64,000 bases of DNA from Variovorax paradoxus (GTDB lineage Bacteria > Pseudomonadota > Gammaproteobacteria > Burkholderiales > Burkholderiaceae_C), in assembly GCF_022009635.1 (NCBI RefSeq), contig NZ_CP091716.1, positions 1,875,001-1,939,000 of the forward strand. Reading direction: 5' to 3'. Of this stretch, positions 5,835 through 58,942 are shown in pieces (within the stretch, counting starts at the first letter, position 1; each line of letters starts with the position of its first letter). Under the pieces are notes generated by a model that was not told the DNA's origin, ran no database searches, and worked only from the letters and a program-made list of their open reading frames with translations. Both the position numbers and the translations under genes were made by a program.

Positions 5835-6454
5835 TTCTGATCAATCTGCTTCCGCACCGCGAAGCCGCTCGAAAGCGGCGGCGCGAGGCGTTCTATGGAA
5901 CCTTGGGTGCGGCAGCTCTCCTGGGCGTGCTGATCTCCGGCTTGGGGTACCTCTGGTACGAAGCCCAGATTTCGGCGCAGCAATCGAAAAACAGCTTTCT
6001 CCAAGCCGAGATCAAGAAGCTGGAAGTCGAGATCAAGGAGATCTCGACCTTGCAGGAAGAAATCGCAGCCCTGCGCGCACGCCAGCAGGCGGTCGAAGAC
6101 CTGCAGGGCGACCGGAATCTCCCGGTGCACCTCTTCAATGAACTGGTGCGGCAGTTGCCCGACGGGGTCTACCTCACCAGCATGAAGCAAGACAACCAGA
6201 TCGTCACGCTGCAAGGCATGGCGCAGTCGAACGAGCGGGTGTCCGAATTGCTGCGTAACCTGGGTAACAACAGCCCTTGGTTGGTGAAGCCTGAACTCGT
6301 CGAAATCACTTCCGCGAATGTCAGCTTGAGCCAGCGCGACCAACGGCGTGTTGCCAATTTCACGATTCGCATCGGCCTGAAGCGCCCCACCGACGCCCAG
6401 AAGGCGGCCGCCGACAAGGCATTGGCGACCGCCACGGCGCAATCCAAGGGGTAA
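5831..6454 (+). CDS. pilN: Type IV pilus assembly protein PilN
   Basis: Bitopic inner-membrane protein of the pilus alignment complex, 207 residues. The N-terminal ILINLLPHREAARKRR is the conserved cytoplasmic tail (INLLPxR) bound by PilM. One membrane helix follows (GAAALLGVLISGLGYLWY), then a coiled coil (QSKNSFLQAEIKKLEVEIKEI) and a ferredoxin-like periplasmic domain. It starts with GTG overlapping the pilM TGA (GTGA), implying translational coupling. Pairs with PilO. Confidence 0.93.
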   Translation: MILINLLPHREAARKRRREAFYGTLGAAALLGVLISGLGYLWYEAQISAQQSKNSFLQAEIKKLEVEIKEISTLQEEIAALRARQQAVEDLQGDRNLPVHLFNELVRQLPDGVYLTSMKQDNQIVTLQGMAQSNERVSELLRNLGNNSPWLVKPELVEITSANVSLSQRDQRRVANFTIRIGLKRPTDAQKAAADKALATATAQSKG

Positions 6455-6460
6455 CCGATC

Positions 6461-7138
6461 ATGGCAAGCAAACGATCCTTACCCAAAGTGGATGTCGGCG
6501 TTGCACTGCAGCGCTTCAGCGAGCAATTTCGCGGACTCAATCCGAACGATCCCTCGGTGTGGCCGGCCGTGCCGCGGTATGCGCTCTGTCTGGCGGTGAC
6601 CGCCTTCGTGCTGGTTGCCCTGTGGTTCGTCTGGCTGACCAATTCGAATGACGAACTCGAGGCCGAGCGCGGCAAGGAAGTCACGCTCAAGGCCGACTAC
6701 CAGAAGAAAGTCGCGCAGGCGGCCAACCTCGACCTGCTGAAGAAGCAGCGCGAACAGGTGCAGCAGTACGTGACCCTGCTCGAGAAGCAGCTGCCCAGCA
6801 AGGCGGAAATGGACGCGCTGCTGTCAGACATCAATCAGGCCGGACTTGGCCGCAGCCTGCAGTTCGAACTGTTCCGGCCCGGCCAGGTGGTGGTCAAGGA
6901 CTACTACGCCGAATTGCCGATCGCGGTCCGTGTCACCGGCAAGTACCACGACATGGGCGCCTTTGTCGCCGATGTCGCTGGCCTCTCGCGCATCGTCACG
7001 CTGAACGGCGTGACGATCACCCCCCAGAAGGACAAGGACACGCTGACGATGGACGCCACGGCGCGCACCTTCCGCTATCTCGACGACGACGAGCGGGCCG
7101 CCCAGAAGCGCGCTGCCGCGCCAAAGGCGAAGAAATGA
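6461..7138 (+). CDS. pilO: Type IV pilus inner-membrane protein PilO
   Basis: Partner of PilN in the inner-membrane alignment complex, 225 residues. The N-terminal cytoplasmic segment has the family-typical FRGLNPNDPSVWPAVPRY. A single membrane helix (LCLAVTAFVLVALWFVWL), a coiled coil (LEAERGKEVTLKADYQKKVAQA) and a periplasmic PilO domain follow. The gene starts 6 bp after pilN and overlaps pilP by 4 bp. The C-terminus is Lys/Ala rich. Confidence 0.94.
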   Translation: MASKRSLPKVDVGVALQRFSEQFRGLNPNDPSVWPAVPRYALCLAVTAFVLVALWFVWLTNSNDELEAERGKEVTLKADYQKKVAQAANLDLLKKQREQVQQYVTLLEKQLPSKAEMDALLSDINQAGLGRSLQFELFRPGQVVVKDYYAELPIAVRVTGKYHDMGAFVADVAGLSRIVTLNGVTITPQKDKDTLTMDATARTFRYLDDDERAAQKRAAAPKAKK

Positions 7139-50944: not shown

Positions 50945-53434
50945 TCACTTCCCAGGCGGGCGCAACGCGACATCGACGTGCGCGGTGGGTAACCCTTCAC
51001 GACTGCGCGCGGCAATCTGCCTGAAGCCGTCCTCGAGGTGCCGCACGAAGCGCGGCGTGTCGAAGTAGCCGCGGCGCGCCTCCTTGGCCGCGGCCAGCCG
51101 CGCGCGCAAGGCAGCGAGTTCGTCGGGGTGCGTGGCGTAGTGGATGGCCTTCTGCACGTACTCCGCGTGGTTCGTGGCCACCAGCTCCGGCAGCCCGATG
51201 GCGCCCAGCAGGCTGCCCGCCATGCGCGACACCATCGTCGAGCCCGTGAGCGCCAGCAGCGGAACGCCCGACCACAGCACGTCGTTCGCGGTGGCGCCGC
51301 TGCTGTAGGGGAAGGTGTCGATGAACAGGTCGGCCAGGCCGATGCGCGCCAGGTGCTGGTCGACCGGCATGCGCGGCGACACGATCAGGCGCTCGGCCGG
51401 CAGGCCGGCCTTTTCCCAGTGCGCGCGCAGGTTGCGCTCGAAGCCGTTCGGGCCTTGCGCGAGCCATAGCACTGAGTTCGGAATGCCCCGCACGATGCGG
51501 ACCCAGGCGTCGAAGGTTTCGGGCTGGATCTTGAAGGACTGCGAGAAATTGCACAGCACGAACGCGTCTTCCGGCAGGCCGTGCGCCTCGCGCGTGGCCT
51601 TGTGCGGGTTGACGGGGCGCTTCGTGTCGATCACCTGGAAGGTCTCGGGCAGGCGCAGCAGCTTCTCGGTGTAGCAGTCTTCCGTGCCCTGCGGCGAGAG
51701 AAAACCGTCGGACACCAGGTAGTCGTAGTTGGTAGAGCCGCTGGTGCCCATGTAGCCCAGCCACATGAGCTGCGCGGGCGCCGTGTGATAGGCCATGACC
51801 TGCGGCTTGGCGCCGCGCGTGTCGCCCGAGAGGTCGACCAGGATGTCGATCTCGTCCTCGCGGATGCGCTCGGCCATCTGCTGGATCGACTGGCCGTGCA
51901 TGTCCACGAAATGCTCCGCCGACGCCGCGATGCGCGCGCGCGCCGGGTGGCCGTCGTCCGGGCCGTAGGAGTACACGAAGACTTCGAAGTCCTTTCGGTC
52001 GTGCAGGCTGTAGAGCTCGGCCGTCAGGTGGGCCACCGGGTGGTTGCGGAAGTCGAACGAGTAGTAGCCCACGCGGATGCGCGGCGATGTGCGGCGCGCC
52101 CCGGCATCGGCAAAGGGCTTGATGGCCGTGTTCCTGTCGGCCAGCGTGGCGGAGCGCTGGGTCCAGTGCATCAGCCGGTGGGCGTCGTCGTAGTTCGACA
52201 TCAGGATGAACGACGACGCTGTCTGGTCGTCGACCGGATTGTCCAGGCGGGCCGCGATCTTCGCGCGCAGCTCGGGCACGCCCTCCCAGCGGGCGATGTG
52301 CGCCTTTTCGCCGAGCAGCCACACCATGGCCGGCATGAAGTCCGGGTCGTCGCGCAGGCACTGCTCGAACTCCGCGATGGCGGCCTCCGACTGCCCGGCC
52401 ATCACGTAGGTCACGCCGAGGTTGCAGCGCGCGAGCACCTGGCGCGGATGCAGTTCGAGGGCCTTCTTGAGCACCTCGATGGCCGCGTCGTAGCGGCCCT
52501 GGCGGAAGTTCGTCGCGCCGAGGTTGTTCAGCAGCGCTTCCTGTTCGGGCATCGACTCCAGCGCGAGCTTGTACAGCTCTTCCGATTCGTCGAAGCGCAT
52601 CGCCGCGCCCTCCAGCGCGGCGCAGACGCCGTAGAGCGCCGCCACCGCTTCGGGGTCCGACAGGGCCCTGGCCCGCACTTCGACTGTCGAATGGCGCATG
52701 GCGCGCTGCATCGGCGCGATGGCCTCTTCGTTGCGGCCGCAGGCGATCAGCGCGCGCGACAGCAGATAGGCCGCCTCGAAGTCGGGCGGATCGGTCTGGG
52801 CCTGCTCCAGCGAAGTCAGCGCGCCGGCCCAGTCCTTCTGGTGGGCGCGGATCTTCCCGATGTTCTTGTGGGCGGCGATGTAGCCGGAGTCCAGCTTCAG
52901 TGCCTGGCGGAACTGCTCGACAGCCTCTTCGAGGCGGTCCTGCTCCATGTCGATCGCGCCGGCGTTGTTCCATGCCGCGGGTGACTGAGGCGCCAGCCGC
53001 GTGGCCTCGCCGGCGGCTTCGCGTGCCTGGCGGAATTTTTTCTGCTGGCGGTAGACCGCCGACAGGTTCACATAGGCCTCGGGATAGTTCGGCAGCGCCT
53101 TGATCGCGCGGCGAAGGTCTTGCTGCGCTTCGGCCAGCAGGCCCATGTGCATGAAGATGGTTGCGCGCGTATTGAAATAGAAGTGGTGCGGCGACTTCGC
53201 GATCGCACGGTTCACGTAGTTCAGCGCCAGCTTCGGGCGGCCCTGCCGGTAGAGCGCCTCACCCGTGAGGTGCAGTGCGTCGGCGTGCTCGGGGAATTGC
53301 GACAGCAGGTTTTCGTAGATCCGCAGGGCTTCGGTGAAGCGGCCCATGCGGTGCTGCGTCAGCCCCTGTTCCAGAAGACGGCTTGCCTCATCGGCGGAGG
53401 CGGTGGGCGCGGGGGCGAGAGAAGGTGAGTTCAT
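50945..53434 (-). CDS. TPR protein with GT41 glycosyltransferase domain (SPINDLY/OGT type)
   Basis: An 829-residue cytosolic glycosyltransferase. The N-terminal half holds about nine or ten TPR units (for example ALRIYENLLSQFPEHADALH; AVEQFRQALKLDSGYIAAHK). From about residue 455 there is a complete GT41 domain with the OGT motifs RVGYYSFDFRNHPVAHL (active-site histidine), QLMWLGYMGTSGSTNYDY, NFSQSFKIQPETFDAW (UDP-binding Lys), NSVLWL and ATANDVLWSGVPLL. The family transfers GlcNAc, fucose or glucose to Ser/Thr or, in the HMW1C branch, Asn. It lies directly downstream of the giant adhesin gene on the same strand, which makes that protein a candidate substrate. Confidence 0.93.
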   Translation of the reverse strand: MNSPSLAPAPTASADEASRLLEQGLTQHRMGRFTEALRIYENLLSQFPEHADALHLTGEALYRQGRPKLALNYVNRAIAKSPHHFYFNTRATIFMHMGLLAEAQQDLRRAIKALPNYPEAYVNLSAVYRQQKKFRQAREAAGEATRLAPQSPAAWNNAGAIDMEQDRLEEAVEQFRQALKLDSGYIAAHKNIGKIRAHQKDWAGALTSLEQAQTDPPDFEAAYLLSRALIACGRNEEAIAPMQRAMRHSTVEVRARALSDPEAVAALYGVCAALEGAAMRFDESEELYKLALESMPEQEALLNNLGATNFRQGRYDAAIEVLKKALELHPRQVLARCNLGVTYVMAGQSEAAIAEFEQCLRDDPDFMPAMVWLLGEKAHIARWEGVPELRAKIAARLDNPVDDQTASSFILMSNYDDAHRLMHWTQRSATLADRNTAIKPFADAGARRTSPRIRVGYYSFDFRNHPVAHLTAELYSLHDRKDFEVFVYSYGPDDGHPARARIAASAEHFVDMHGQSIQQMAERIREDEIDILVDLSGDTRGAKPQVMAYHTAPAQLMWLGYMGTSGSTNYDYLVSDGFLSPQGTEDCYTEKLLRLPETFQVIDTKRPVNPHKATREAHGLPEDAFVLCNFSQSFKIQPETFDAWVRIVRGIPNSVLWLAQGPNGFERNLRAHWEKAGLPAERLIVSPRMPVDQHLARIGLADLFIDTFPYSSGATANDVLWSGVPLLALTGSTMVSRMAGSLLGAIGLPELVATNHAEYVQKAIHYATHPDELAALRARLAAAKEARRGYFDTPRFVRHLEDGFRQIAARSREGLPTAHVDVALRPPGK

Positions 53435-53493
53435 GAAGCCGTGGGTTGGACGGGTCAGAAGATCGGCCGCTGAAATTCCGGCCTGGAGGCATG

Positions 53494-53526
53494 AAAAAAG
53501 ACCGGCCACCCAGTATAGGTGGCCGG
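53494..53526 (-). terminator. Strong intrinsic terminator between the adhesin and glycosyltransferase genes
   Basis: Read on the minus strand, CCGGCCACC (53526-53518) pairs perfectly with GGTGGCCGG (53510-53502) around a 7-nt loop, followed by TC and TTTTTT. It would end most adhesin transcripts before the glycosyltransferase gene, so that gene needs read-through or its own promoter. Confidence 0.85.
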
Positions 53527-53592
53527 CCTCGTGTTGTAACCGTTGGCAACCCCCGGCAGCGCACAGGCGCCGCCCGGGGATCGCCGCGTGGA

Positions 53593-56500
53593 TCACCAGG
53601 ACCAGGAAGCGCCGACCCCGCCGCCGACCTTGCCGCTCTGGCCGGTGCCGAGGTTGACCTTGATCTGCGACGCCTCGCCGAGGCGGAAGCTGATCGCGGC
53701 CGCAATCGCCGAGCGGCCGTCGTAGGAGCCGACGCCCACGCCCACGCCGAACTGCTTGCCCGCTTCCAGGGCCGGCACCGAGGCCGCGGCCATCGCGATG
53801 GCCGCGCCGGTGCTGCCGACCTTGCGCGCGTCCTGCACTTCGCTGCGCACCTGGTTCAGCTGTTGCATGTTGGCTGCGTCCGTCGGCAGGATGCCTGGGG
53901 CCACGTTCTGCACGCGGCCGTTCGCCACCACGCCGTTGCCCGCCGTGATCGTGCCGCCGGCGTTCACGTTGCCCGTCACGTTGACCGTGCCGGCATTCAG
54001 CGTCGTGACGTTGCCCGTCACCGCGTTGATCGTCGTGATGTTGCCGGTCTGCGTGTTGAGCACCGTGATGTTGCCGTTGGCCGCGGTGATCGTCTGGAAG
54101 TTGCCGGTGGTCGCGTTCACCGTGCCGGCATTGACCGTGCTCGCGTTCACCGTCGTTGCGCTCACCGTGTTGGCGGTCAGTGCGTTGATGGTGGCGCTGG
54201 CCGCCGTCAGGTTGGTGGTGCTGACGTTGGTCGAGTTCAGCGTGTTGATCGTGCCGTGGCCCGCCGACAGGTTGGCCGTCGTGATGTTGGTCGACGTCAG
54301 GTTGTTGATCGTGCCGTTGGCGGTCGTCAGGTTGTTGGTGCTGACGTTGGTCGCGCTCAACGTGTTGATCGTGCCGTTGTTTGCGGTCAGGTTCGTGGTG
54401 CTGACGTTCGTGGCGTTCAGCGTGTTGACCGTACCGTTGCTCGCCGACAGGTTCGTCGTCGTGACGTTGGTAGCGCTCAACGTGTTGATCGTGCCCGCGG
54501 TCGCCGACAGGTTGGATGTCGTGACGTTGGTCGCGTTCAGGGTGTTGATCGTGCCGTTGCTGGCCGTCAGGTTGGTGGTGCTGACGTTGGTGGCGTTCAG
54601 CGTATTGACCGTGCCGTTGCTTGCCGACAGGTTCGTCGTCGTGATGTCGGTGGCGTTCAGCGTGTTGATGGTGCCGCTGCTGGCCGTCAGGTTCGTCGTG
54701 CTGACGTTCGTGGCATTCAGCGTATTGACCGTACCGTTGCTTGCCGACAGGTTCGTCGTCGTGATGTCGGTGGCGTTCAGCGTGTTGATGGTGCCGCTGC
54801 TGGCCGTCAGGTTCGTCGTGCTGACGTTCGTGGCATTCAGCGTATTGACCGTACCGTTGCTTGCCGACAGGTTCGTCGTCGTGATGTCGGTGGCGTTCAG
54901 CGTGTTGATGGTGCCGCTGCTGGCCGTCAGGTTGGTGGTGCTGACGTTGGTGGCATTCAACGTATTGACCGTACCGTTGCTCGCCGACAGGTTGGTCGTC
55001 GTGATGTCGGTGGCGTTCAGCGTGTTGATGGTGCCGTTGCTGGCCGTCAGGTTGGTGGTGCTGACGTTGGTGGCATTCAACGTGTTGACCGTGCCGTTGC
55101 TTGCCGACAGGTTCGTCGTCGTGATGTCGGTGGCGTTCAGCGTGTTGACCGTGCCCGTGGTCGCCGACAGGCTGGACGTCGTGACGTTGGTCGCGTTCAG
55201 CGTGTTGATGGTGCCGTTGCTGGCGGTCAGATCGGTCGTGCTGACATTGGTCGCGTTCAGCGTGTTGACCGTGCCCGTGGTCGCCGACAGGCTGGACGTC
55301 GTGACGTTGGTGGCGTTCAGCGTATTGATGGTGCCGTTGCTGGCGGTCAGGGCCGTCGTGCTGACGTTGGTCGCGTTCAGCGTGTTGACCGTACCGGTGG
55401 TCGCCGACAGGCTGGACGTCGTGACATTGGTCGCGTTCAGCGTATTGATGGTGCCGTTGCTGGCCGTCAGGTCCGTCGTGCTGACGTTGGTGGCGTTCAG
55501 CGTGTTGACCGTGCCCGTGGTCGCCGACAGGTTGGATGTCGTGACGTTGGTCGCGTTCAGCGTATTGATGGTGCCGTTGCCGGCGGTCAGATCGGTCGTG
55601 CTGACATTGGTGGCGTTCAACGTGTTGACTGTGCCAGTGGTTGCCGACAGGCTGGACGTCGTGACGTTGGTCGCGTTCAACGTATTGATGGTGCCGTTGC
55701 TGGCGGTCAGGGCCGTCGTGCTGACATTGGTCGCGTTCAGCGTGTTGACCGTACCCGTGGTCGCCGACAGGCTGGACGTCGTGACGTTGGTCGCGTTCAG
55801 CGTGTTGATGGTGCCGTTGCCGGCGGTCAGATCGGTCGTGCTGACATTGGTGGCGTTCAACGTGTTGACCGTGCCGGTGGTCGCCGACAGGCTGGACGTC
55901 GTGACGTTGGTCGCGTTCAGCGTGTTGATGGTGCCGTTGCTGGCGGTCAAGTCCGTCGTGCTGACATTGGTAGCGTTCAGCGTGTTGACCGTACCGGTGG
56001 TCGCCGACAGGCTGGACGTCGTGACGGTGGTCGCGTTCAACGTATTGATGGTGCCGTTGCTGGCGGTCAGGGCCGTCGTGCTGACATTGGTCGCGTTCAG
56101 CGTGTTGACCGTACCCGTGGTCGCCGACAGGCTGGACGTCGTGACGTTGGTCGCGTTCAGCGTGTTGATGGTGCCGCTGCTGGCGGTCAGATCGGTCGTG
56201 CTGACATTGGTGGCGTTCAGCGTGTTGACCGTACCGGTGGTCGCCGACAGGCTGGACGTCGTGACGTTGGTGGCGTTCAGCGTATTGATGGTGCCGTTGC
56301 TGGCCGTCAGGTCCGTCGTGCTGACGTTGGTGGCGTTCAGCGTGTTGACCGTGCCCGTGGTCGCCGACAGGTTGGATGTCGTGACGTTGGTCGCGTTCAG
56401 CGTATTGATGGTGCCGTTGCCGGCGGTCAGATCGGTCGTGCTGACATTGGTAGCGTTCAGCGTGTTGACCGTACCGGTGGTCGCCGACAGGCTGGACGTC

Positions 56501-57555
56501 GTGACGTTGGTCGCGTTCAGCGTATTGATGGTGCCGTTGCCGGCGGTCAGATCGGTCGTGCTGACATTGGTGGCGTTCAGCGTGTTGACCGTACCGGTGG
56601 TCGCCGACAGGCTGGACGTCGTGACGTTGGTCGCGTTCAGCGTATTGATGGTGCCGTTGCTGGCGGTCAGATCGGTCGTGCTGACATTGGTGGCGTTCAG
56701 CGTGTTGACCGTACCGGTGGTCGCCGACAGGCTGGACGTCGTGACGTTGGTCGCGTTCAGCGTATTGATGGTGCCGTTGCCGGCGGTCAGATCGGTCGTG
56801 CTGACATTGGTGGCGTTCAGCGTGTTGACCGTACCGGTGGTCGCCGACAGGCTGGACGTCGTGACGTTGGTCGCGTTCAGCGTATTGATGGTGCCGTTGC
56901 TGGCCGTCAGGGCCGTCGTGCTGACGTTGGTGGCGTTCAGCGTGTTGACCGTACCCGTGGTCGCCGACAGGTTGGACGTCGTGGTGTTCGTCGCGTTGAT
57001 GGTGCCGGCAGTGAGCGTGCCGGTACTGATGCTGGTCGACGTGAGACTGGTGATCGTGCCTGTCGCGGCGGTCAGCACGTTGGCGCCGAGGGTGCCGGTG
57101 AAGGTTCCGTTGGTTGCCTGGACACCGTTGGCCGTCACGGTGCCGGTGATGTTGGCGCTGCCTGCCGTCAGGGCCGCGATGTTGGCGCCGGCCGCGGTCA
57201 CGTTGCCGGTGACGTCGACGCTGCCGGCGGAAACGGTGGCAGACGTGATGCTTGACGCGCTGAGCGTATTGATGGTGCCGGTGTTGGCGGTGATGGTGCC
57301 CGCGCTGATGCTGCCGGCAGTCAGGGAGGTCGTACTCACGCCCTGGGGCGCGTTCAGCAGGCCACCGGTGTTGGTTGCGTTGCCACCGTTATTGATCCGG
57401 ATGGGGTCGCCCCCGATCGTCACTGCCTGCGCGTACGCCACTGGCAGCGTCATTACATATCCCGCCCCCACCAATACCGAGGCAAGCAGGTGGCTGATGC
57501 CCGTGCTGCGCGTGCCGGAAGACGAACGTTTGGAAGAGCGCTTGGGTGTAGTCAT
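53593..57555 (-). CDS. Giant repetitive trimeric autotransporter adhesin (YadA-type anchor)
   Basis: A 1320-residue surface protein. It has a long basic extended signal region (KRSSKRSSSGTRSTGISHLL) and a hydrophobic core ending near PVAYAQA. A beta-rich GTITA-type head region spans about residues 45-190. About 47 tandem 20-residue repeats (about 190-1130) follow the 10-residue pattern xxxLxA(S/T)NxT, for example TTNLSASNGT VNTLNATNVS. The C-terminus is a YadA-like neck and beta-barrel anchor: GILPTDAANMQQLNQVRSEV, AIAMAAASVPALEAGKQFGVGVG, and a terminal GASWSW. AAGGAAAAAGG precedes the ATG. Repeats are Thr/Asn/Ser rich with 2-4 N-X-S/T sequons each. Charged residues are scarce. Likely forms a trimeric adhesive fibre. 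Confidence 0.88.
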   Translation of the reverse strand: MTTPKRSSKRSSSGTRSTGISHLLASVLVGAGYVMTLPVAYAQAVTIGGDPIRINNGGNATNTGGLLNAPQGVSTTSLTAGSISAGTITANTGTINTLSASSITSATVSAGSVDVTGNVTAAGANIAALTAGSANITGTVTANGVQATNGTFTGTLGANVLTAATGTITSLTSTSISTGTLTAGTINATNTTTSNLSATTGTVNTLNATNVSTTALTASNGTINTLNATNVTTSSLSATTGTVNTLNATNVSTTDLTAGNGTINTLNATNVTTSSLSATTGTVNTLNATNVSTTDLTASNGTINTLNATNVTTSSLSATTGTVNTLNATNVSTTDLTAGNGTINTLNATNVTTSSLSATTGTVNTLNATNVSTTDLTAGNGTINTLNATNVTTSNLSATTGTVNTLNATNVSTTDLTASNGTINTLNATNVTTSSLSATTGTVNTLNATNVSTTDLTASSGTINTLNATNVTTSSLSATTGTVNTLNATNVSTTALTASNGTINTLNATTVTTSSLSATTGTVNTLNATNVSTTDLTASNGTINTLNATNVTTSSLSATTGTVNTLNATNVSTTDLTAGNGTINTLNATNVTTSSLSATTGTVNTLNATNVSTTALTASNGTINTLNATNVTTSSLSATTGTVNTLNATNVSTTDLTAGNGTINTLNATNVTTSNLSATTGTVNTLNATNVSTTDLTASNGTINTLNATNVTTSSLSATTGTVNTLNATNVSTTALTASNGTINTLNATNVTTSSLSATTGTVNTLNATNVSTTDLTASNGTINTLNATNVTTSSLSATTGTVNTLNATDITTTNLSASNGTVNTLNATNVSTTNLTASNGTINTLNATDITTTNLSASNGTVNTLNATNVSTTNLTASSGTINTLNATDITTTNLSASNGTVNTLNATNVSTTNLTASSGTINTLNATDITTTNLSASNGTVNTLNATNVSTTNLTASSGTINTLNATDITTTNLSASNGTVNTLNATNVSTTNLTASNGTINTLNATNVTTSNLSATAGTINTLSATNVTTTNLSASNGTVNTLNATNVSTTNLTANNGTINTLSATNVSTNNLTTANGTINNLTSTNITTANLSAGHGTINTLNSTNVSTTNLTAASATINALTANTVSATTVNASTVNAGTVNATTGNFQTITAANGNITVLNTQTGNITTINAVTGNVTTLNAGTVNVTGNVNAGGTITAGNGVVANGRVQNVAPGILPTDAANMQQLNQVRSEVQDARKVGSTGAAIAMAAASVPALEAGKQFGVGVGVGSYDGRSAIAAAISFRLGEASQIKVNLGTGQSGKVGGGVGASWSW
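54181..57000 (-). repeat. Array of about 47 in-frame 60-bp tandem repeats
   Basis: The unit length is exactly 60 bp with no indel across 2.8 kb. Units alternate between two types, giving a 120-bp (40-residue) higher-order period. In coding order: about 31 units of an SSLSATTGTVNTLNATNVST / DLTASNGTINTLNATNVTT type (57000-55141), then 10 units of an NLSASNGT / NLTASSGT type (55140-54541), then six more diverged units (54540-54181). Near identity between neighbours indicates recent duplication or gene conversion. Confidence 0.92.
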
Positions 57556-58171
57556 TTGGACCTTTTTCCTTGATGTATCGATGGCGACTTCCGGGCTCCC
57601 AGAGTCCCTTGTCGCGTGAAAGCAGGGTCGGGTTTCATTGCGTTACCCGGTGCAACCGATGCTAGGAATCGAGGTACTTGCTGAACATCACCGGGATCCG
57701 TAGTTCTGCGGTCCCGCGAGCGCTTCGATGCGTGTTCGAAAAAAAGTGGAGAGGTCCGCAAAGCCAATGCCCATGCGGCTTCGCGGGCATCACATGAATC
57801 CGTGGGCCATGCGTCGACACGCGATGTCGAGCGCGTTTCGTGTTGCGCGGTGCTACGTAACGTGCGCTCAAAACGCCACGTAACAACCGCGCGAAAACGA
57901 CCTTTTCAGAGCCCTCTCAAGACCGCGTTGCACGGTCCGTTTGCGTCAATTTCTTCAATGAAATCAAAGTACTACAGGCAATGGCATGCCTGTTCGCACG
58001 GTGCTTTTTCGCGCAGGCATCGTTCCTGCGACATCTGAAACGAAAGACAACATTTCGAAGCTACCCGCAGGTAGCAATGAGCAAGAGGGGATGTCGCGTG
58101 GTCAATCTGTTTTCGAGCTTTGCCAATGCCTACATGGACACGGTTTTCCGTGTCGCCAGGGGAGTGCGGTC
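57556..58171. promoter_or_regulatory. 616-bp divergent intergenic region between adhesin and response regulator
   Basis: No convincing gene: the short reading frames here lack ribosome sites and family features. It must hold the promoters of both divergent genes, but I found no strong sigma-70 match. On the regulator side are three perfect inverted repeats: ATGCCTG 57986-57992 / CAGGCAT 58014-58020, GCTACC 58060-58065 / GGTAGC 58070-58075, and GACACGG 58137-58143 / CCGTGTC 58148-58154. A direct repeat of ACGTAAC lies near 57855 and 57879. Confidence 0.55.
58137..58154 (+). promoter_or_regulatory. Stem-loop just upstream of the response regulator ribosome site
   Basis: GACACGG-TTTT-CCGTGTC, a perfect 7-bp stem with a 4-nt loop. 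It ends 3 nt before the AGGGGAG Shine-Dalgarno (58158-58164) of the gene starting at 58172. Such a position could affect ribosome access or mRNA stability. Confidence 0.5.
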
Positions 58172-58942
58172 ATGGAAATGAATATGAGTGTCCGTTGCCA
58201 ACCCGTGCGGCCGATGCCGTCGGTTGCGCAGATGTATGGCGGTGTCTTCCATGCCGCGCTGATCGTCGCGGACGATCTTGCGGTCGCCGATCGCATGCGT
58301 CGCATCCTGGCCGAGCTCGCGCCGCGCCGCCGCATCGTGGTGGCGTCGAGCCGCGCCGAAGCCTGCAACCTGCTGGCCGCGCTGCCGTATGACCTCGCCC
58401 TGGTCGATATGCGGCTGCCGTCGAACGAAGGCATCTCGCTGCTTCATCATGTGCGCCAGAACTACCCGGGCATCGAAAGCGTCGGCATGTCCGATATCGA
58501 CGACCAGGAACTGGTGGGCGCCGCGATTGCCGCGGGCGCCATCGGCTATCTGCTGACGGAAGCGGACGACATCGAGCTTGCCTATCTGCTGCGTTCGGTG
58601 GAACGCGGCGGCGCGCCGATGGACTCGCGCATCGCGCGGCGCATACTGAGTTCGATCGCCGCGTCCGCCAAGGCGCGCACGATCGAGCCGATCCGCGTGC
58701 AGGAGCCGCAGCAAGACGAGCCCGTGTCGGCCACGAAGCTGCCGCGCGGCCTGCTGTCGCCCAGGGAGCTCAAGGTGCTGCGGCTGATTGCGCAGGGCTG
58801 GAGCAACCGGCAGATCGCGGAAGCGGTCTATCTGTCGGTCAACACCATCGAGTTTCATGCCAAGAGCATCTACCGCAAGCTGTCCGTCAAGTCGCGGACC
58901 CAGGCGGTTCATGAGGCGATGCAGCACGGTCTTCTGAACTGA
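58172..58942 (+). CDS. LuxR/FixJ-type response regulator with atypical receiver
   Basis: A 256-residue two-domain regulator. The receiver (about 25-145) has the acidic pair in IVADD and a phospho-acceptor-type aspartate in LALVDMRLPS. However, the conserved lysine of the GYLLK motif is threonine here (GYLLTEADD), so phosphorylation signalling may be altered. The C-terminal helix-turn-helix is a standard GerE domain: LSPRELKVLRLIAQGWSNRQIAEAVYLSVNTIEFHAKSIYRKL (abridged by motif). Start ATG at 58172 with AGGGGAG upstream; longer in-frame starts lack this. No histidine kinase gene is adjacent. It is divergent from the adhesin gene and is its likely local regulator. Confidence 0.88.
   Translation: MEMNMSVRCQPVRPMPSVAQMYGGVFHAALIVADDLAVADRMRRILAELAPRRRIVVASSRAEACNLLAALPYDLALVDMRLPSNEGISLLHHVRQNYPGIESVGMSDIDDQELVGAAIAAGAIGYLLTEADDIELAYLLRSVERGGAPMDSRIARRILSSIAASAKARTIEPIRVQEPQQDEPVSATKLPRGLLSPRELKVLRLIAQGWSNRQIAEAVYLSVNTIEFHAKSIYRKLSVKSRTQAVHEAMQHGLLN

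Follow-up and report, generated by a model that had tools for sequence, protein, structure and literature searches.

The window analysed here is a 64,000-nucleotide stretch (G000:C1:1875001-1939000) of the 7.95-Mb genome of Variovorax paradoxus, which belongs to a genus of bacteria living in soil and in association with plants; G000 denotes its own genome. It contains a gene for a repeat-rich trimeric autotransporter adhesin next to a gene for a family 41 glycosyltransferase (GT41) with tetratricopeptide repeats (TPR), and the two probably form one functional module. The order of genes is pdxA (+), mscL (-), GT41 (-), adhesin (-), a gene for a LuxR-type response regulator (+), and petABC (+). 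pdxA and petABC were named by reading the translations; pdxA, mscL, luxR, and petA were also traced by homology. The coordinates are listed in Table 1.

Table 1. Features of the adhesin–glycosyltransferase locus (positions in the window) and loci with a second GT41–YadA pairing (positions in the respective locus).
Feature	Position	Strand	Basis
TPR-GT41 glycosyltransferase, 829 aa	50945..53434	-	profile matches, ortholog start, structure model
Terminator-like hairpin and T-run, TATACT in loop	53498..53530	-	sequence and ortholog alignment
First inverted repeat past the adhesin stop	53551..53579	-	compensatory changes in alignment columns 26-65
YadA-type trimeric autotransporter adhesin, 1320 aa	53593..57555	-	PF03895 profile match, 45.1 bits
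YadA membrane anchor, residues 1261-1320	53596..53775	-	PF03895 match
20-residue Asn/Thr/Ser-rich repeats, residues ~181-1120	54196..57015	-	periods 20 and 40
LuxR-type response regulator, divergent	57986-58942	+	homology
Second GT41–YadA pairing	L092 5696-9585 (G031); L093 7587-11476 (G084); L094 6290-16469 (G024); L095 6036-13868 (G033)

By its C-terminal YadA_anchor domain (PF03895, E 1.1e-11, against a Pfam cut-off of 22.7 bits), the adhesin is classed as a trimeric autotransporter (type Vc). Inspected by eye for a signal peptide, its N-terminus shows a hydrophobic segment followed by AYAQA near residue 43. The adhesin contains 139 N-X-S/T sequons; the first-pass annotation had put this number at roughly 100. 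In a monomeric structure model of the last 400 residues, the repeats form a regular beta-solenoid, with block pLDDT values of 86-95 across the first 170 residues that fall beyond them. AlphaFold is able to build solenoids from exact repeats, so that regular models of this kind can mislead. The anchors of Hia and YadA were the top two Foldseek matches to this model, both weak (E 0.022 and 0.26). For the repeats, Foldseek returned generic solenoids only; no pentapeptide-repeat structure occurred among the matches listed, which excludes nothing. The 'Decapeptide' profile PF25296 was discarded as an indicator of such adhesins: the whole-genome search also found it in 4 of 14 control genomes, and in G000, G061, and G154 the hits listed fall outside the adhesin, making it uninformative on adhesins that lack the glycosyltransferase. 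Other trimeric autotransporters of Variovorax, encoded apart from such an enzyme (L176-L195), include reading frames of up to 3,786 residues (L181); their Ser+Thr content reaches 58% in L182, where Asn is almost absent.

The neighbouring enzyme matched PF13844 (Glyco_transf_41) with 307.3 bits (cut-off 25) as well as many TPR families. Its reading frame had initially been listed from GTG 53596, overlapping the adhesin end; this start is superseded by ATG 53434, which is common to the orthologs. In the structure model, a helical TPR array (residues ~14-380) precedes a GT-B domain (residues ~448-815). Its best full-domain matches in both sequence and fold are enzymes of the O-GlcNAc transferase (OGT) type, which is also found in animals, namely Xanthomonas campestris OGT (XcOGT), Thermobaculum OGT, human OGT, and SPINDLY. 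Residues D554, H558, K842, and D925 of human OGT align with D461, H465, K635, and D718, and the residues aligned to the human active site are invariant across 42 rows. HMW1C and related N-glycosyltransferases (NGT) possess an AAD domain in place of the TPR (PMC3983070). The enzyme studied here carries a TPR array instead, and its score against the HMW1C/NGT model NCBIfam NF049992, 40.9 bits, is far below the cut-off of 1000. Profile scores, domain architecture, and sequence and fold matches thus place it in the OGT/XcOGT branch of GT41 and not with HMW1C, as the first-pass annotation had proposed. No signal peptide was evident by eye, and no second GT41 gene was found in the genome at E 0.001 (two domain matches, both in one gene).

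The two genes are separated by a 158-bp gap containing two hairpins. In the one directly after the adhesin stop, many of the base changes across Variovorax are compensatory. The TATACT of the second was present in all 20 intergenic stretches compared and in genome G087; in the 16 of these 21 stretches that were aligned, the hairpin was largely kept and TATACT was invariant. Locus L083, outside this alignment, has a weaker hairpin and no T-run. The -35 region upstream of TATACT is not conserved. From these patterns, the second hairpin looks like a terminator of the adhesin gene with a possible -10 element of the glycosyltransferase gene inside it, and the two genes are therefore probably not expressed as one simple transcript. 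The enzyme gene had been described as lying directly downstream of the adhesin gene on the same strand; order and strand are correct, but this terminator-like hairpin with its T-run lies in between.

Conservation of the pair was examined in 101 Variovorax genomes, including G000. A full-length ortholog of the glycosyltransferase was present in 20 of them (81-100% identity) and a contig-cut fragment in two more; other matches among those listed reached at most 44%. The C-terminal 135 residues of the adhesin were found in 19 genomes at 84-100% identity, with next matches at 58% or less. All 19 anchors lie directly upstream of the glycosyltransferase gene on the same strand, and all 19 genomes are among the 20 with the full-length enzyme. 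Not one of the 19 adhesins in this genus-wide set occurs without the enzyme, and the enzyme is accompanied by the adhesin in 19 of 20 genomes. The pair is also present in Variovorax sp. KBW07 (L038), and Variovorax accounted for all 15 named loci with close relatives of the enzyme.

Genomes G071 and G009 display the order petA-luxR-mscL-pdxA without the pair. A remnant of the glycosyltransferase C-terminus precedes mscL in both, as detected by tblastn and sequence inspection in G009 and by sequence inspection in G071. Judged from this scar, both genes were lost in these two genomes; the losses may represent one single event. The pattern of loss is mixed: the enzyme disappeared along with the adhesin in G071 and G009 and was retained in G087. 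The LuxR-type regulator gene adjoins petA with or without the pair (e.g., in G071 and G009), and the regulator is therefore not specific to it.

Beyond the genus, GT41 matches at E values up to 1e-60 were obtained in 179 of 399 family genomes, 177 of them outside Variovorax. The best of these non-Variovorax enzymes are encoded in G256 (50% identity) and G154 (41%); others among the matches listed share 31-34% over most of their length or, over parts of it, as much as 45%. YadA anchors were surveyed in 40 GT41-holding genomes (8 Variovorax and the 32 highest-scoring of the 177 others). Only G256 and G154 among these 32 possess a YadA anchor, and each has one YadA gene that ends shortly before the glycosyltransferase reading frame on the same strand (120 and 87 bp, respectively). 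Contig ends truncate both adhesin genes, but the visible parts are Asn/Thr/Ser-rich and contain PF03895. The gene neighbours of these two pairs differ from those in Variovorax. In a tree quickly built from 52 GT41 domains, eight Variovorax enzymes form one clade with those of G256 and G154 (SH-aLRT 98); 'unlinked' rows of this tree were judged by coordinates or by reading frames, not all by one test. The proposed link between adhesin and enzyme was thus borne out within Variovorax and by a single case apiece in two other genera. The first-pass annotation had also held that the link would fall if the enzyme gene were just as common, and next to unrelated genes, in relatives that lack the adhesin. 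For this clade, the genome comparison did not refute the link; G087 is the sole exception.

In an order-level search of 399 genomes, only G624, G707, and G693 besides G000 passed 1e-110. No frame of at least 200 aa at their four loci exceeded a Ser+Thr+Asn fraction of 0.29; in G624, only about 0.7 kb of contig C29 precedes the aligned start of the glycosyltransferase, and an upstream gene may therefore be cut off. G707 contains two tandem GT41 genes (L174 7958-12453), the flanking frames of which end in tails that, by eye, resemble PEP-CTERM. In G256, the enzyme gene is followed by a methyltransferase-like gene and a Glyco_tranf_2_5 gene (L148 3674-4938). In G154, genes of the nucleotide-sugar type Polysacc_synt_2 and RmlD_sub_bind families converge on the glycosyltransferase gene (L149 6252-8358), a possible hint at the sugar donor.

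A different GT41 clade (support 100) is also encoded next to YadA-type genes. In G031, G084, G024, and G033, the two genes are divergent and lie 0.2 kb apart in two genomes and ~1.4 kb apart in two. The YadA-type frames in these pairs are not sequon-rich (1.4-2.4 sequons per 100 aa). The YadA-type gene of G024 may be broken or misassembled: its 2011-aa frame stops before the anchor, which is in another frame (L094 ~6290-6700). If these pairs also represent enzymes and their substrates, dense sequons are no requirement of GT41–adhesin pairing.

We explain the adhesin and the glycosyltransferase best as one functional module, in which a dedicated OGT-type enzyme would serve one adhesin family; given the sequence data, we assign this a probability of roughly 0.7. 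Since the genes are conserved side by side, the adhesin is probably the natural target of the enzyme. In the cytosol, the glycosyltransferase with its long TPR arm would bind the adhesin polypeptide and add single sugars from a nucleotide-sugar donor at many sites of the Asn/Thr/Ser-rich repeats. This addition would precede Sec export, trimerisation, and display, in a scheme akin to the action of HMW1C on HMW1 and of heptosyltransferases on AIDA-I.

Several observations weigh against this explanation. No glycan has been seen; the adhesin is a likely substrate, and cytosolic site and donor are proposals. The terminator-like element separates the two genes. G087 keeps the enzyme (88% identity) without the adhesin: the LuxR gene is followed, after 0.5 kb, by the glycosyltransferase gene. 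Pairwise dN/dS values of this enzyme show no rise: they are 0.119-0.154 against the six nearest relatives, with an overall median of 0.193. We dropped dN/dS as a sign of relaxed selection in G087; pairwise values cover the whole history of a gene and are silent on recent loss. As many as 30 of the 32 surveyed genomes outside Variovorax lack any YadA, which implies that GT41 in general has other targets. The enzyme was absent from the further genomes searched in the genera of G256 and G154 (3 and 2, respectively). Finally, the linked cases are not independent because all descend from one clade.

Should the adhesin be the substrate, the sugars could be attached to the sequons by an enzyme combining OGT architecture with NGT chemistry. 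N-glycosylation of sequon-dense trimeric autotransporters would then have arisen separately from HMW1C/NGT, inside an enzyme branch for which Ser/Thr transfer is known so far. Composition speaks for this idea. The comparison covered 16 linked adhesins, left after 4 of 20 rows had been dropped, and 19 unlinked adhesins of the genus, one of the 20 fetched having no frame. Without any overlap, Asn content was 0.117-0.177 vs 0.012-0.088 (medians 0.141 and 0.047), and sequons per 100 aa numbered 5.5-11.7 vs 0.08-1.94 (medians 7.7 and 1.2). Ser+Thr contents were alike, with medians of 0.390 and 0.368 (p 0.86). The p value of 5e-7 obtained for both separations is overstated because the 16 linked adhesins are orthologs. 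The partial passengers of G256 and G154 contain 16.1 and 8.3 sequons per 100 aa, respectively, with a bias towards the forward motif N-x-S/T (2.34x and 1.85x; mirror motif 0.76x and 0.71x). For NGT and OGT alike, the donor alpha-phosphate has been proposed to act as base (PMC10507012).

The Variovorax repeats themselves point the other way. Forward motifs are no more frequent than mirror S/T-x-N motifs in the 16 linked adhesins (833 vs 885), nor in the unlinked ones (346 vs 407). Shuffling the passenger composition gave 85 expected sequons against 139 (z 8.4), a value overstated because one 20/40-residue repeat was copied many times; with non-independent repeats and equally frequent mirror motifs, we rejected it as evidence of sequon selection. 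Among 221 aligned 20-mers, the best kept Asn is a non-sequon one (column 4, kept in 191), while the sequon Asn residues are kept in 57, 154, 139, and 102 (columns 7, 10, 15, and 20); Asp replaces Asn in 40 of the 20-mers at column 10 and in 38 at column 15. The Asn columns were free in the regular expression selecting these 20-mers, and the Ser/Thr columns were partly fixed by it; an alignment built without it (11 rows) has many invariant Thr columns. Given the lack of directional excess and the weaker retention of sequon Asn, the sequon density in Variovorax is accounted for by repeats rich in Asn, Thr, and Ser. The sequon saturation noted in the first-pass annotation, which had itself allowed for either N- or O-linkage, is not supported as evidence of N-glycosylation. 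Together with the low score against the NGT model, this leaves N-glycosylation at sequons a tentative possibility. Judged from sequence, there is about an even chance that the linkage is to Ser/Thr, slightly favoured because of the enzyme type and the well-kept Thr columns; linkage to Asn is about half as probable, and neither or both would account for the rest.

A structural role of the repeats is plausible from the solenoid predicted for them. The repeats may then be merely an Asn-rich beta-solenoid with sequons as by-products, the enzyme acting elsewhere and adjacency being inherited synteny. The retention of the enzyme alone in G087 fits such a view, as do the N/D-[VL]-[ST] repeat columns, which we take to resemble the pentapeptide-repeat motif. 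It is nonetheless unlikely, given that the adjacency recurs in three genera with different neighbours, that G071 and G009 lost both genes, and that none of the 19 adhesins occurs without the enzyme. Alternatively, the glycosyltransferase could assist the adhesin as a chaperone or in export, with the long TPR arm outweighing sugar transfer. A chaperone role has been raised for HMW1C (PMC3983070, PMC8151025), but invariance of the residues aligned to the OGT active site makes it improbable here.

The proposed dedicated module resembles several known systems in part. HMW1C/NGT enzymes share the GT41 GT-B fold and modify type V adhesins in the cytosol, including HMW1, EtpA, and trimeric autotransporters of Kingella kingae and Aggregatibacter aphrophilus; in the HMW1 and Etp systems, the enzyme gene likewise adjoins the adhesin gene (PMC3983070, PMC8151025). 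BAHT heptosyltransferases are dedicated cytosolic enzymes of autotransporters such as AIDA-I and Ag43 (PMC8151025), which are classical and not trimeric. The OGTs of X. campestris, Thermobaculum, and human and SPINDLY share the TPR arm and GT41 domain, with K842 of the human enzyme corresponding to K635, but differ in that no adhesin partner was found for them in the literature searched. TibA is another BAHT partner, and BAHT is an enzyme family other than GT41. Among the studies cited in PMC8151025, one reportedly ties glycosylation of EmaA in A. actinomycetemcomitans to the lipopolysaccharide pathway, and another reportedly deals with K. kingae and A. aphrophilus. The Burkholderia cenocepacia BCAM0219-0224 cluster, considered as a possible carrier of a glycosyltransferase gene, was dropped: the word 'glycosyl' is absent from the main text of PMC3404963, which names a lipoprotein, regulators, and sensor kinases. 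Listings of the open-licence PubMed Central literature showed no paper recognisable as describing a trimeric autotransporter with a partner GT41 of the TPR-OGT type. The pair would be a variant of the dedicated cytosolic glycosylation of adhesins that combines an OGT-type enzyme with a trimeric autotransporter partner.

The authors of the study on the Thermobaculum enzyme TtOGT were unable to identify modified proteins (PMC4683255). TPR-OGT-type GT41 enzymes are common in bacteria, as illustrated by the family genomes surveyed here (179 of 399). To our knowledge, their natural substrates are hardly known, and the conserved pair supplies a concrete candidate. If the proposed function is true, a second GT41 branch would have been recruited to type V adhesins, and the choice between N- and O-linkage in GT41 would become open to study on a natural, highly repetitive acceptor.
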